A stretch of 28,130 bases of DNA from positions 1 to 28,130 of IMG/VR virus record IMGVR_UViG_3300037882_000169. One strand, 5' to 3'. Below, piece after piece: positions 5,377-13,589 of the stretch. Below the pieces are notes generated by a model. It saw only the letters and a list, made by a program, of their open reading frames with translations. It was not told the DNA's origin and ran no database searches. The first letter of the stretch is position 1, and every line of letters starts with the position of its first letter. Origin of the DNA: a virus. A program made the translations under genes and the position numbers.

Positions 5377-6118
5377 AGTCTTTCCATACAAACTAGGCTC
5401 TCAGTCTGCTAAAGCATTAGCTCATGGGCTTAATGTACTACGTGTTAAGCCTACGTATGATGCACGTAGACGTGATGTTATTATTAACTGGGGTAACAGT
5501 AGACCTAGTGCTATACTACAAGCCTCTCATGATTTAAACTCACATGGGGCAATCGCACTTGCTTGTAACAAACTCAAAACATTTAACAAACTAAATGGGC
5601 TGGGATTTGAACATATACCTGACTATACTATCCATCCAGAAGAAGCTACTGCTTGGTTACAAGAAGGTAACAAAGTATATTGTCGAACGTCCTTGACAGG
5701 ACACAGTGGTAATGGTATAGTAATCATAGAACCTGATGGGCATCTAATCAATGCACCATTGTATACTAAAGCAACCAAACATAAATACGAATTCCGTGTT
5801 CATGTATTTAAAGGAAAGGTTATAGATGTACAACAAAAGAAACGACGTAATGATTATACTGGTCCCAATACTGGCATTCGTAATCATTCCAATGGTTATA
5901 TATATGCAAGGGTAGACATCGATGTTCCACCTCTATTACTATCGTCGTCTATTCAAGCGGTTGATTTGCTTGGTCTTGATTTTGGTGCTGTTGATGTGGG
6001 CTATCGTGAGCGTGATTCCCGTGTGTTTATATTTGAAGTTAACACAGCTCCTGGGTTAGTTAATACAACGTTAAATAAATATGTTAATACTTTTAAGGAG
6101 TACTTAAATGACATCTAA
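5366..6118 (+). CDS. ATP-grasp family ligase
   Basis: Predicted ATP-grasp fold enzyme of 250 residues, forming an amide (peptide-like) bond through an acyl-phosphate. Motifs: YCRTSLTGHSGNGIVII (ATP-binding loop), YEFRVHVFKGKVIDVQQKKR (central strands) and LGLDFGAVDVGY with FIFEVNTAPGL (Asp and Glu/Asn magnesium ligands). I chose ATG 5366, preceded by GAAAGGATAAAGG, over the upstream ATG at 5339, which lacks a site; this also gives the same MRFK start as the preceding gene. It completes a set of amidoligase, amidotransferase and ATP-grasp enzymes. It may add amino acids to a peptide or to a cell-wall part, but the substrate is unknown. Confidence 0.85.
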   Translation: MRFKVFPYKLGSQSAKALAHGLNVLRVKPTYDARRRDVIINWGNSRPSAILQASHDLNSHGAIALACNKLKTFNKLNGLGFEHIPDYTIHPEEATAWLQEGNKVYCRTSLTGHSGNGIVIIEPDGHLINAPLYTKATKHKYEFRVHVFKGKVIDVQQKKRRNDYTGPNTGIRNHSNGYIYARVDIDVPPLLLSSSIQAVDLLGLDFGAVDVGYRERDSRVFIFEVNTAPGLVNTTLNKYVNTFKEYLNDI

Positions 6119-6557
6119 AGAGGAAACATTAAAGATGGTTATAGATTATGAAATTGAATTGCCTGAACGCGTTATTAACGCTTGCAAAGAAGCACTAGAA
6201 CAACCAGCGCAAGAAGTTGTGGCTTGGATTGATGTAAATGATAGATTGCCTGAACCTGAAATTAACTTTTTAAGTTTATCTAAAACATACGGATATCAAG
6301 TATCAATGTATAGCAAAAATCCATTAAATAGCACACATTTGCCAACATTAGAAAAATTAAAAATTGATAAATGGATGCCAATTCCTAAACTCTACACCCA
6401 CCCTCATCAGGTCGTGCCAACGAGCACTTGGCAAGGATTAACGGATGATGAGATAAATGAAATACATAAAAATATATTTAATTCAGAAATTTTCCAAGTT
6501 CAAGTTAGATTTTTTTGTGCTATTGAACAAGCATTAAGGATTAAAAATGCTTTATGA
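6108..6557 (+). CDS. DUF551-like phage protein, 149 aa
   Basis: The central part (about residues 39-97) has the DUF551 signature: WIDVNDRLPE, then GYQVSMY, then KWMPIPK. DUF551 proteins are small, common in phages and of unknown function. The N-terminus (EELPERVINACKEAL type helix) and the C-terminal helices are extra. It overlaps the ATP-grasp gene by 11 bases and has GGAG upstream, so it belongs to the same transcript. Confidence 0.75.
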   Translation: MTSKEETLKMVIDYEIELPERVINACKEALEQPAQEVVAWIDVNDRLPEPEINFLSLSKTYGYQVSMYSKNPLNSTHLPTLEKLKIDKWMPIPKLYTHPHQVVPTSTWQGLTDDEINEIHKNIFNSEIFQVQVRFFCAIEQALRIKNAL

Positions 6558-6738
6558 ATATGGAAAAATAGGCACAGGATTAAAGGCTAGAAAAAACAAA
6601 TTAACAAAGAAAGTTGAATTTTTAATTTGGAAAAAAGGGGAACAAGGGCATAAAGAAGATTGTTATATTAGATGCGACCCTAGTTGGGATGAAACATTTG
6701 TTTCTGAACAAGCATTAAAGGAAAAGAATCATGTTTAA
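6547..6738 (+). CDS. Hypothetical lysine-rich protein, 63 aa
   Basis: Unrecognised, basic in the first half (KARKNKLTKKVEFLIWKK) with two Cys later. Predicted beta-rich and soluble. It overlaps the previous gene by 11 bases and the next by 8; AAGGA lies upstream of its ATG. Confidence 0.7.
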   Translation: MLYEYGKIGTGLKARKNKLTKKVEFLIWKKGEQGHKEDCYIRCDPSWDETFVSEQALKEKNHV

Positions 6739-6877
6739 ACTTGTAATACTTTATACAAATGGTTCATCTGAAACTAAACAATTTAAAACATGGGAAGAAG
6801 CAGATTGGTATGCCCACATGGGTGGTGATCATGTCTATGACTACACAATTACGGAGGTAAACAATAATGAAATTTAG
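6731..6877 (+). CDS. Hypothetical protein, 48 aa
   Basis: A short ORF starting MFKLVILYTNGSSE, with a W-rich middle (TWEEADWYAHMGGDHV) and beta-strand ends. The fold resembles the small phage proteins that hold one strand-strand-helix-strand unit. AAAGGAAAAG lies 7 bases before the ATG. It overlaps both neighbours, as is normal in this operon. No family assigned. Confidence 0.6.
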   Translation: MFKLVILYTNGSSETKQFKTWEEADWYAHMGGDHVYDYTITEVNNNEI

Positions 6878-9638: not shown

Positions 9639-9756
9639 TTTGACACGTGAAGATATCTATGATATAATTGATAGTGTTAGTGCTGGTGAAACACTAGAAG
9701 AAACAGTAGAGAAATTCTACCCATTGAATAAGGCGGTCGGAGAATGCGGGAGCTAA
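9607..9756 (+). CDS. Hypothetical acidic protein, 49 aa
   Basis: Starts MIDKILQDRPDLTREDIYDIID, a helical, acidic small protein. GGAGAAAAG precedes the ATG. It ends 13 bases inside the DNA polymerase gene. May be a small helical accessory factor; not recognised. Confidence 0.55.
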   Translation: MIDKILQDRPDLTREDIYDIIDSVSAGETLEETVEKFYPLNKAVGECGS

Positions 9757-10904
9757 TCTTAGATGTTGAAACAACTATATCAAACAAAGGTAATCCCTTT
9801 GATGAAAGCAACAAGCTCTGCTACGTGGGAACTTATGACGGTATGGCTTATGGTCTTCATAACATTGAGTATGATTCTGAGCCTTATGGTAGCCATCTCG
9901 CTAACGTGCAAACTACTGTGGATGCTTGTGACTTAATTATTGGGTTTAATATTAAATTTGATTTGCATTGGATACGACGTTATGGAATTTCTTTTAGCAA
10001 CAAGCGTATATGGGATTGTCAGCTTGTGCATTTTATACTTACTGGACAAACAGCCAGCTACCCCTCCCTCAATGGAGTTGCTGCTTATTACGATCTGGGT
10101 AGTAAGCTTGATGTGGTTAGTACAGAGTATTGGAAGAATGGTATAGATACACCAGACATACCAGAAGATATCCTTACAGAGTATTTACAAGGTGACTTAG
10201 ACCTAACGTATCAAGTGTATCTTAAACAACGTAAGGAACTAAATAAAGCAAGCCCACAACTACGTAGGTTAGTTAGCCTACATAACCAAGACTTGCTAGT
10301 GTTACAGGAGATGGAGTATAATGGACTGGTATTTGATGAAGCTAAATGTACAGAGCTGGGTGAAGAGCTTACAGTACAGATTAAAAGACTCGATGATATA
10401 CTGTATGACTATCATCAAACTGATGGCTTCAACAGTAATTCTACTGAGCACCTCTCTGCTTTACTTTATGGTGGGACTATTGTTTTTAAGCGCAGAGAAG
10501 TTATTGGTGTATTCAAGACGGGTACTAGAGCTGGTCAAGATAAGGAAAGGTGGGTAGACTATCCAATTGTGTTCGAGAAGATTGTCAATCCAATTAAAGG
10601 TTCTGAGCTGGCTAAGGAAGGTTTTTACAGCACAGATGAACAAACACTTAAGTCTCTTAAAGGAAGTAAGAAAGCTAAAGAGTTAGTTGAATTGCTATTA
10701 CGCAGAGCAACTCTAGAGAAACGACTATCTACTTACTATGAAGGACTAGTTAAATTAAGAAAGGAAATGAAATGGAATGAAGGAAAACTACACGGACAGC
10801 TTAACCAATGTGTGGCTAGAACAGGTCGACTTAGTTCAAGCAGACCTAACTTACAGAACTTTGATGGTGAAATTAAAGAACTATTCAGGAGCAGATATGA
10901 CTAA
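9744..10904 (+). CDS. DNA polymerase family A, N-terminal part (exonuclease + thumb)
   Basis: 386 residues carrying the 3'-5' proofreading domain: LILDVETT (Exo I, Asp7 and Glu9), GFNIKFDLHW (Exo II), and YLQGDLDLTY (Exo III). This is followed by the thumb and the start of the polymerase fold (RTGRLSSSRPNLQNF). It stops at FRSRYD, which in complete family A enzymes lies just before motif A; the remainder is in a separate gene at 11024. The two would form one active enzyme by association. The stop overlaps the ATG of a 53-codon ORF (10897). GGAG occurs before the start. Confidence 0.9.
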   Translation: MRELILDVETTISNKGNPFDESNKLCYVGTYDGMAYGLHNIEYDSEPYGSHLANVQTTVDACDLIIGFNIKFDLHWIRRYGISFSNKRIWDCQLVHFILTGQTASYPSLNGVAAYYDLGSKLDVVSTEYWKNGIDTPDIPEDILTEYLQGDLDLTYQVYLKQRKELNKASPQLRRLVSLHNQDLLVLQEMEYNGLVFDEAKCTELGEELTVQIKRLDDILYDYHQTDGFNSNSTEHLSALLYGGTIVFKRREVIGVFKTGTRAGQDKERWVDYPIVFEKIVNPIKGSELAKEGFYSTDEQTLKSLKGSKKAKELVELLLRRATLEKRLSTYYEGLVKLRKEMKWNEGKLHGQLNQCVARTGRLSSSRPNLQNFDGEIKELFRSRYD

Positions 10905-11058
10905 AGAATTAAATGATGTGTATGGTAAAACAGATTTAGATTATGTAAATGAGTTCAATGAGTTTGATGCAGAGCCTGCATATATACAAGCTAAAGTAAA
11001 TGAATGTCAGAAGGAGTGCAACAATGAGCTTAATACAGGCGGATGCCAAGGCTCTTGA
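10897..11058 (+). CDS. ORF between the polymerase halves, 53 aa
   Basis: Starts MTKELNDVYGKTDLD and ends in a Cys-containing tail. AGGAG precedes the ATG by 6 bases. It overlaps the end of the N-terminal polymerase gene (8 bases) and the start of the C-terminal one (35 bases), and is in a different frame from both. It is acidic and helical, with four Cys near the end. It may be the trace of the inserted DNA that split the polymerase, or a peptide that helps the halves associate. Unknown. Confidence 0.55.
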   Translation: MTKELNDVYGKTDLDYVNEFNEFDAEPAYIQAKVNECQKECNNELNTGGCQGS

Positions 11059-11743
11059 GTGGGTATGTGCTACATTTCTAAGTCAAGATCAAACAGCTAT
11101 CAAGGAGATATGGGATAATGTCGACCAACACACAGACAACCAAGAGCGGTTTGGTTTACCAAGTAGACTCATTGCTAAAACGTTCGTATTCCGTCTTATC
11201 TACGGAGGATCTGCATACTCTTATGCTAATGATCCTAACTTTAAAGACATTGGCGGAGAACAGTTCTGGGACGGAGTCATTGGAGAGTTCTATCGTAAAT
11301 ACGATGGGCTTAGTAAGTGGCATACAACAATTGTCGAGCAAGCTAAACGAGATAGAAAACTCACTATGCCCACAGGCCGTGTGTACAACTATGAACCAGA
11401 AGTTAGCTATGGAAAAGTCAAGTGGCCTAGGACAAAGATCCTCAACTACCCTGTACAAGGGCTTGGAGCGGACCTCATGTCCATCGCACGAGTCAGCTTG
11501 GCAAACAGACTTAAAGGAGTGAGTGGAGTAAAACTAATTAATACTGTACATGATTCAATTATTCTTGACATTGATGACAAGATATGCGATAATATACGTA
11601 TAGTTCAATTAGTTGATAAATGTTTTACAGATGTACCAGCAAACTTTGAGAAACTCTTTGGAGTTAAATTTAATCTCCCAATGCGGGTCGAATGTCAAGT
11701 CGGTCCTAACTGGGGAAACATGGAGGTAGTAAATGCTAATTAA
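11024..11743 (+). CDS. DNA polymerase family A, C-terminal part (palm/fingers)
   Basis: 239 residues from ATG 11024, preceded by AGAAGGAG 7 bases upstream. It opens with motif A, LIQADAKALEW (catalytic Asp). Next is motif B, RLIAKTFVFRLIYGG (the Lys and Tyr of the O helix), then motif C, NTVHDSIILDI (catalytic Asp). Together with the 9744 gene it makes a full T7/PolI-type polymerase: joined, FRSRY and LIQAD would be only a few residues apart, as in unsplit enzymes. It overlaps the SSB gene by 11 bases. Confidence 0.9.
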   Translation: MSLIQADAKALEWVCATFLSQDQTAIKEIWDNVDQHTDNQERFGLPSRLIAKTFVFRLIYGGSAYSYANDPNFKDIGGEQFWDGVIGEFYRKYDGLSKWHTTIVEQAKRDRKLTMPTGRVYNYEPEVSYGKVKWPRTKILNYPVQGLGADLMSIARVSLANRLKGVSGVKLINTVHDSIILDIDDKICDNIRIVQLVDKCFTDVPANFEKLFGVKFNLPMRVECQVGPNWGNMEVVNAN

Positions 11744-12284: not shown

Positions 12285-12311
12285 ATGCAAGCACTAATTG
12301 ATGGTGCTTGA
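12285..12311 (+). pseudogene. 5' fragment of the exonuclease gene
   Basis: ATG at 12285, with AAGGA 7 bases upstream, encodes MQALIDGA and then stops at the TGA inside the -35 box of the HNH promoter. MQALIDG is the expected start of the exonuclease: joined to GAC at 12885 it would read MQALIDG-DIVAYRVA with no gap. It appears to be the original start, cut off by the 579-bp insertion 12306-12884. Confidence 0.6.
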
Positions 12312-12336
12312 CAAATCTATAGAACTATGGTATAAT
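12308..12336 (+). promoter_or_regulatory. Consensus sigma70 promoter of the HNH gene
   Basis: TTGACA (12308-12313), exactly 17 bases, then TATAAT (12331-12336): a full consensus match. It lies 24 bases before the HNH start codon, inside the inserted element. It lets the endonuclease be read by host RNA polymerase independently of the phage operon and may also drive downstream genes. Confidence 0.88.
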
Positions 12337-12360
12337 AGTAGCTTCTCAATGGAGATTGTA

Positions 12361-12840
12361 ATGGCTAATCAATTTAAACCTAGGTTCTATAGTCCCGAAC
12401 AGGGACTCATTAGTTGTGGTAAATGTAATACAAATAAAACTTTAGATCAATTTCATAAAGATTCATCTAATAAATATGGAGTAGCTTACTTTTGTAAAGA
12501 CTGTGCTACATCTATATCAAGAAAGTTACATCAAAAAAGATGTAATGATATAGAATATAAAACAGCTAAACGAAGTAGTTATACTAAAACAAAGTTTGGT
12601 CTTACTCTAGAAGAGTATACAAAGAAACTAAAAGCACAAGATTGTAAATGTGCTATCTGTGGGTTGGAACTTCCCACTAGCGGTCATCTAACTCATTTAG
12701 ATCACTGTCATGCGACTGGCAAGATTAGAGCATTTCTTTGTACAAATTGTAATAGAGGTCTTGGACATTTTCAAGATTCTGTTTCTAACTTAACAGAAGC
12801 TATTACCTATTTAAAGACCCACAATTCAAGTGCTGATTGA
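12361..12840 (+). CDS. HNH / endonuclease VII-like nuclease
   Basis: 159 residues from ATG 12361, chosen for GGAG at 12351. The in-frame ATG at 12298 would place the promoter inside the gene. N-terminal zinc finger: CGKC and CKDC. The C-terminal nuclease has CAICG, then LDHCHATGK (catalytic His/Asp) and CTNCNRGLG, the layout of the phage recombination endonuclease VII family. Many are free-standing homing nucleases that spread themselves. It sits between the two parts of the exonuclease gene with its own promoter, and carries a GGAGG immediately after its stop for the next ORF. Codon use is similar to its neighbours. Confidence 0.9.
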   Translation: MANQFKPRFYSPEQGLISCGKCNTNKTLDQFHKDSSNKYGVAYFCKDCATSISRKLHQKRCNDIEYKTAKRSSYTKTKFGLTLEEYTKKLKAQDCKCAICGLELPTSGHLTHLDHCHATGKIRAFLCTNCNRGLGHFQDSVSNLTEAITYLKTHNSSAD

Positions 12841-12857
12841 ATAAGGAGGTTAGTTCG

Positions 12858-13589
12858 ATGATGGCTCTCATCGACGGTTGAGGCGACATCGTTGCATATC
12901 GAGTAGCTTGTACTTGTGAAGACGACGACTCAGAAGATTATGTATTTAGTAAAGTAGATGATGTCATTGACAAAATCACTTTCTATACAGACTCTGATGA
13001 GTACCGTGTCTTTCTAACAGGTAGTAATAACTTTCGTAAAGCAATCTATCCAGAATACAAGGCCCATAGGCCGACAGAGAAACCATTCTGGTTACAAGCT
13101 ATACGAGACTACCTAGTTAAAGAGTACAAAGCAGAAGTATGTGATGGGCAAGAAGCTGATGATGCAATGGGTATCAATCAAACAACAGAGACTATTATCT
13201 GTACCATAGATAAAGATTTGTTAATGATCCCAGGACAACATTATAACTTTGTTAAAGACGAGTTCAAGACTGTTGGTTATCTAGACGGACTAAAGCATTT
13301 TTATATGCAGTGTTTACAAGGGGATCGTAGCGATAACATCAAAGGTATCCCTGGAATTGGTCCTAAGAAAGCAGAAGGTATCTTAAGAAACTGTACTTCA
13401 GAGTATGATATGTTTAAAGCAGTACGTAATGCATATGGTAACGATGAAGAATTCCTTATGAATGGTCGAGTCTTATGGATTAGACGAAATGAAAATGAAG
13501 ACTGGAGTGAACAATTCAATGCCCTTATTCAAGAGCAAACTGGAGGAGCAAGTCTGGAAGATCTTGAGAGAGAACTTCCCCTCAGTTAA
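12858..13589 (+). CDS. 5'-3' exonuclease (FEN-like), interrupted by in-frame UGA
   Basis: Flap-endonuclease-like exonuclease: DIVAYRVA (first Asp), VCDGQEADDAMG (acidic cluster), CTIDKDLLMIPG, and QGDRSDNIKGIPGIGPKKAE (metal ligands plus helix-hairpin-helix). It removes primers and degrades host DNA. From ATG 12858, with AGGAGG 7-8 bases upstream, the frame gives MMALIDG and then TGA at 12879-12881 before GGC-GAC-ATC. From 12882 to 13589 the frame is open, but the next ATG is at 13167, after part of the active site. It may be made by readthrough, rare initiation, or not at all; a base error is possible. It overlaps the endonuclease I gene. Confidence 0.75.

Follow-up and report, generated by a model that had tools for sequence, protein, structure and literature searches.

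The window, i.e. the whole 28,130-nucleotide stretch of viral DNA that was analyzed (IMG/VR record IMGVR_UViG_3300037882_000169), carries a DNA polymerase gene in two parts separated by 119 nt, with a small ORF (ORF M) between them and, further downstream, an exonuclease gene interrupted by a homing-endonuclease-like gene (Table 1). The N-half, ORF M and the C-half lie in three different frames, each preceded by a plausible Shine-Dalgarno sequence. ORF M starts at an ATG within the last codons of the N-half, with CAGGAG upstream, and overlaps the N-half by 8 nt and the C-half by 35 nt; the C-half has an alternative in-frame ATG at position 11000. The N-subunit comprises an exonuclease-like region, the thumb and the start of the palm, while the C-subunit, intact and scar-free in the window, provides the fingers, motif C and, at residue 7, the Asp of motif A. 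The Pfam profile DNA_pol_A matched the halves separately (profile positions 42–132 for the N-half and 154–380 for the C-half). The original prediction, namely a polymerase divided just before motif A around a 53-codon ORF with its own ribosome binding site in a third frame, is thus borne out.

Table 1. Features of the polymerase and exonuclease regions of the window.
Feature	Position	Strand	Remarks
N-half, family A DNA polymerase N-subunit	9744–10904	+	386 aa; ends KELFRSRYD-stop; C-terminal end NLQNFDGEIKELFRSRYD
ORF M initiation site AGCAGATATG, AGGAG just upstream	10890–10899	+	C-subunit start point in insert-free relatives
ORF M, conserved small gene	10897–11058	+	53 codons; homologs in the same place in L006–L016, L021, L031, L043, L049–L053, L090
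C-half, polymerase C-subunit	11024–11743	+	239 aa; begins MSLIQADAKALEW; AGAAGGAG upstream
Left copy, severed native exonuclease start ATGCAAGCACTAATTGATGGT	12285–12305	+	equals uninterrupted start in L007, L016
Promoter-like sequence, sigma70-type, TTGACA-17-TATAAT	12308–12336	+	left end of cassette; read from sequence; similar in L014, L015, L122
Free-standing homing-endonuclease-like gene	12361–12840	+	endonuclease VII/HNH type; sequence match
Shine-Dalgarno AAGGAGG (12843–12849) and right copy ATGATGGCTCTCATCGACGGT	12843–12878	+	recoded exonuclease start
Hairpin TCGATGA..TCATCGA	12855–12874	+	7-bp stem
Recoded start ATG ATG GCT CTC ATC GAC GGT	12858–12878	+	
Scar, in-frame TGA (12879–12881) then GGC	12879–12884	+	GGT-TGA-GGC at active-site motif LIDGD
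Remaining exonuclease gene	12885–13589	+	open, under constraint

In an alignment with the undivided polymerase of HMO-2011, the sequence SRFDGGKVMEAD corresponds to SRYD/MSLIQAD of the window (the slash marks the break) and, over a longer stretch, KKVFVSRFDGGKVMEADFAQLEF lies opposite IKELFRSRYD/MSLIQADAKALEW. Because of this alignment, in which the lengths differ by one residue, the break was placed in the short turn preceding the motif A strand, a tolerated point, as had been predicted. Residue 4 of the C-subunit corresponds to residue 607 of Taq polymerase (PDB sequence match). In silico folding of the C-half alone (pLDDT 93.1) placed the catalytic Asp7 on a strand formed by residues 2–8, and the predicted fold matched the palm and fingers of the Bst and Taq polymerases. 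Both halves are conserved, and the motif A and motif C residues are invariant across 57 C-subunits. As judged from its sequence, the family A DNA polymerase of the window is made as two proteins, cut at a surface turn by the active site. One operon would yield both halves through overlapping, probably coupled, translation, and the N- and C-subunits would have to assemble without a covalent link.

The proposed comparison with relatives was performed with loci drawn from a phage collection and from IMG/VR. The halves lie in separate frames, divided at one and the same turn ahead of motif A, in 188 of the 188 relatives in which both were located (a count in which some contigs figure twice), and no fused or undivided polymerase was found among these. 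The distance between N-half residue 385 and C-half residue 3 varies from 1 nt to 3.6 kb, with classes of 1 nt (a large group of loci, whose C-half start codon ATG overlaps the N-half end), 8 nt (TAATG), 35–61, 89–134 and 208–654 nt, and 3.6 kb; ORF M is present in nearly all members of the 89–134 nt class. The 3.6-kb segment separating the polymerase halves (L003, 6637–10207) holds a cytosine methyltransferase gene and other genes. Cultured phages are also represented: the polymerase is split in isolates MEP401 and MEP402 and in Alcaligenes phage QDWS535, where the two genes overlap by 1 nt and there is no insert. The split is, on this distribution, an old two-subunit trait fixed across the whole lineage, and the break therefore does not represent a scar left by ORF M. 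Its origin would fit either a frameshift or an old insertion of a homing endonuclease gene (HEG), since the clade yielded no undivided member. Phages LUZ24 and PaP3, also named for comparison, proved not to be apt counterparts, because phages of that group encode the exonuclease and polymerase domains in separate genes, LUZ24 additionally containing an intron (PMC3517423, PMC3890496).

It is highly improbable that a single-chain polymerase is concealed here, whether by splicing of a group I intron or split intein or by a base error. An intron has been suggested for MEP401/402 (PMC10580990), and introns occur in the polymerase genes of LUZ24 and of Salmonella phage Vi06, but the annotated interruption in Vi06 is at a different site and no Rfam intron match was obtained in the window or in its HEG-bearing relatives. 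The 119-nt gap contains no group I intron core detectable with Rfam, in line with the prediction that it is too short for one, and gaps of just 1–8 nt are found in many relatives. Intein sequences are absent from both ends. An intron was ruled out on the Rfam results, and so was a base error, as no fused relative was found and the break recurs with different gap lengths and frames in every relative (188/188).

The near relatives of the window show dN/dS values of 0.07–0.21 for ORF M (0.2–0.8, and less clear, for shorter homologs of 39–40 aa), and the full-length homologs differ in length by whole codons. By these measures ORF M is a genuine small gene under purifying selection, which does not support the dead remnant that had been envisaged. 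Insert-free relatives begin their C-half at the ATG used by ORF M, and the C-half start of the window's clade is new; the tree suggests that the split predates ORF M. Most insert-free relatives (including those with 1-nt and 8-nt gaps) lack ORF M, yet their polymerase halves are split, so ORF M is dispensable for a split polymerase in general and did not prove to be the cause of the division. It is accordingly unlikely that a mobile element split the polymerase and then decayed into ORF M: although sister phages have HEGs at the same junction, one of which (in L178) shares its ATG with ORF M, the pattern of selection and the exclusively in-frame length changes argue against decay, and ORF M resembles no HEG in Pfam or PHROGs.

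A second small family, of about 62 aa, starts in the last N-half codons and is located between the halves in 43 loci of a distant sub-clade (L246–L288). Its product is predicted to be compact, with three helices (pLDDT 91.6); no match was obtained in PHROGs, no fold match in the PDB and no counterpart in sequenced phages. HMM comparison detected no homology between this family and ORF M, and a common origin of the two was dropped from consideration. The conservation of ORF M, invariably between the halves, and the presence of a distinct helical family at the same position in distant loci would be consistent with a third polymerase subunit by which the two halves are held together or regulated. 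This role is possible but doubtful, and remains putative for ORF M, considering that many relatives have split halves with nothing between them and that no relationship could be detected between the two small families. A role as an accessory or regulatory peptide appears likeliest.

A HEG of the HNH/endonuclease VII type, or its remnant, was identified at the polymerase junction in 14 of 140 distinct C-half sequences (phrog_3322, phrog_1035). In L014, L015, L122/L229 and L230–L234 the start of ORF M or of the C-half, broken off at ATG-x-L-x-Q-A, is followed by a promoter-like TTGAC..TATAAT sequence, the HEG and a Shine-Dalgarno sequence; a second, recoded start then runs through D-A-K-x-L to a disruption, after which come E-W and the rest of the C-half. 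The recoded C-half start in these sister phages thus ends in a stop codon or frame break beside the catalytic Asp. In L016, which is very close to the window, only the 3′ end of the HEG and the disruption remain. Scars between the catalytic Asp and E-W, with the HEG present or gone, occur in L014, L015, L016, L122/L229, L230–L234, L150–L155, L254, L265, L266, L268, L271, L274, L277, L289, L244 and L004. Judging from these relatives, free-standing HEGs have a hotspot at this junction. The suggestion of an intrusion was therefore right for the site, which mobile endonuclease genes invade in relatives, but was not borne out for ORF M itself.

Insertions of other structure were also observed. In L133 (3506–4251) the last 28 N-half codons are duplicated downstream of the HEG. 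In L178 the HEG (5509–5945) starts from an ATG overlapping the N-half end and the C-half start is scar-free; a second interruption is situated about 60 codons into the C-half (about 6100–6770).

The exonuclease gene of the window (12285–13589) is itself interrupted, by a cassette of the kind seen at the polymerase junction of sister phages. Its scar reads MMALIDG-TGA-GGC-GDIVAYR, the native sequence continuing with GAC ATC. Since the gene is uninterrupted in the close relatives L006, L007 and L016, the arrangement corresponds to the insertion of a free-standing HEG. Among the 135 distinct exonuclease starts listed, three carry a scar: that of the window and those of L253 (TCC TAG CT GAC) and L284 (GGT TAG GT GAC), both with an endonuclease VII-type gene directly upstream of the exonuclease. 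HEG neighbors do not always leave scars, as the exonuclease start is intact in L292, the locus of the nearest HEG relative that adjoins an exonuclease gene. Of the two replication genes of the window that were thought to bear intrusion scars, the exonuclease gene does so, with its HEG cassette and in-frame TGA, but the polymerase split is no such scar of ORF M.

The reading that we consider very probable is that of a two-protein polymerase with an old, fixed split, in which ORF M is a real gene and the junction and the exonuclease start are HEG targets. As seen in relatives and, for the exonuclease, in the window, the HEGs strike these two sites repeatedly, at active-site codons, each bringing its own promoter-like sequence, a Shine-Dalgarno sequence and a recoded duplicate of the 5′ end that it interrupts. 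Homing endonucleases thus invade replication genes at their most conserved codons.

The stop codon in the exonuclease gene of the window may have to be hopped over by the ribosome. We regard it as an even question whether the HEG cassettes are coupled to programmed miniature ribosome hops. The cassette would re-initiate the interrupted gene from a strong Shine-Dalgarno sequence; after 7–11 recoded codons, extending through the active-site Asp, a stop or frame break would be reached, at which the peptidyl-tRNA would slip or hop onto a matching codon (−1 to +10 nt away), so that the native sequence is resumed. A hop at the window exonuclease would give the peptide MALIDGDIVAYR.

Approximately 21 scar junctions were compared. 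Immediate stops, repeated codons and strong Shine-Dalgarno sequences are frequent among them, as are upstream hairpins in the polymerase set. The stop directly follows the last native codon in 15 of 21 junctions, for which the chance is about 3e-11 even at 10% stop codons, a few related junctions being counted separately. Just before the native sequence resumes, the take-off codon frequently recurs (CTG-TAA-CTG, CTT-TAG-CTC, CTT-T-CTT, GGT-TA-GGT, GGT-TGA-GGC). The scar of L265/L271 is CTT-TGA, which resembles the release-factor-2 frameshift site. That of L004 is A-AAA-AAG, named as highly shift-prone in E. coli (PMC5009743). Median Shine-Dalgarno pairing was −12.1 kcal/mol at scarred starts vs. 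−6.8 kcal/mol otherwise. A stem flush with the take-off codon was found in 15 of 25 polymerase scars vs. 2 of 115 polymerase controls and, overall, in 13 of 20 representatives vs. 38 of 252, none of these tests being corrected for phylogeny. The score of the 7-bp stem at the window exonuclease is reached by 26% of exonuclease controls, and the hairpin at the exonuclease scars alone, not being distinct from these controls, was set aside.

Other ways of restoring the products were considered. Reading of one stop codon as sense is unlikely, because TAA, TAG and TGA all occur in the scars, as do frame breaks. RNA splicing was ruled out, as the disruption would sit within any exon that holds the catalytic Asp. 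Assembly faults could produce single scar junctions, the loci being metagenomic contigs, as is the window; as a general explanation this is unlikely, given that similar scars recur across many independent contigs.

The scarred exonuclease and the scarred C-subunits of relatives may instead simply be dead, short-lived casualties of homing. We take this to be a serious possibility, albeit one that is probably wrong. The scars are scattered at the tips of the tree with intact sisters alongside, a strong hairpin is missing in the scar groups L229, L230–L234, L014–L016 and L004, and the codon repeats could arise from the insertion itself. Against this, each of 11 scarred contigs contains a single C-half and no spare intact copy, the frames downstream of the scars are intact and constrained, and the same scar persists in diverged loci, also after loss of the HEG (L016, L265/L271); nor would dead genes be expected from the immediate stops and the far stronger Shine-Dalgarno sequences at scarred starts. 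According to a 2016 review, no natural in-frame stop-hopping is known (PMC5009743). If hopping does occur, the first natural cases would include the window exonuclease and the C-subunits of the polymerase in sister phages.

Several known systems resemble the window. A split polymerase with a small intervening ORF was already reported for phages MEP401 and MEP402 of OM43 bacteria, the authors wondering about an intron (PMC10580990). These Methylophilales phages (MEP401-type group, Zobellviridae) share with the window the split point, the presence of a small ORF between the halves and the gene order, and their C-subunits are 67–69% identical to that of the window, which has the separate frames and the break before motif A typical of the group. 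Their small ORF (77 aa) is unlike ORF M, there being no BLAST match between ORF M and the MEP401 gp14-type ORF of L001/L002, and the intron idea finds no support here. The small ORF was not treated as defining the MEP401 type because it varies across the clade. Vibrio phage ICP2 (Zobellviridae) likewise has a two-part polymerase divided just before motif A, with the break about 11 residues upstream of that in the window and no stop or frame scar. The original ICP2 isolate contains an HNH gene between the polymerase parts (L144, 4372–4821), absent from the 2013 Haiti isolate (L145).

Aeromonas phages 25 and 44RR also encode their replicative polymerase as two polypeptides, 43A and 43B; those of phage 25, where a HEG is associated with the 43A/43B junction, co-purify and polymerize (PMC2988022). 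By analogy, the halves encoded by the window may assemble in the same manner, although 43A/43B is a family B enzyme, whereas that of the window belongs to family A and its split is fixed clade-wide. Retained throughout a diverse phage clade, a palm cut next to its catalytic Asp would constitute a natural test of split-enzyme assembly.

For the scars, the closest parallel is T4 gene 60, with its HEG (mobA)-linked 50-nt translational bypass (PMC5009743). As in gene 60, a HEG adjoins the split gene, there is a short 5′ coding segment, a stop directly follows the take-off codon and a similar landing codon is present (GGT-TGA-GGC in the window); many of the scars also have an upstream stem-loop. 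They differ from gene 60 in their gaps of 1–10 nt (or −1), in the many separate cassettes and in affecting polymerase and exonuclease genes, the recoding being putative. Anatomically, the cassettes are similar to T4 mobA/gene 60, of whose class they would be candidate members. If the scars are recoded, they would represent short ribosome hops that form a natural family linked to mobile elements, which would generalize the single case of T4 gene 60.
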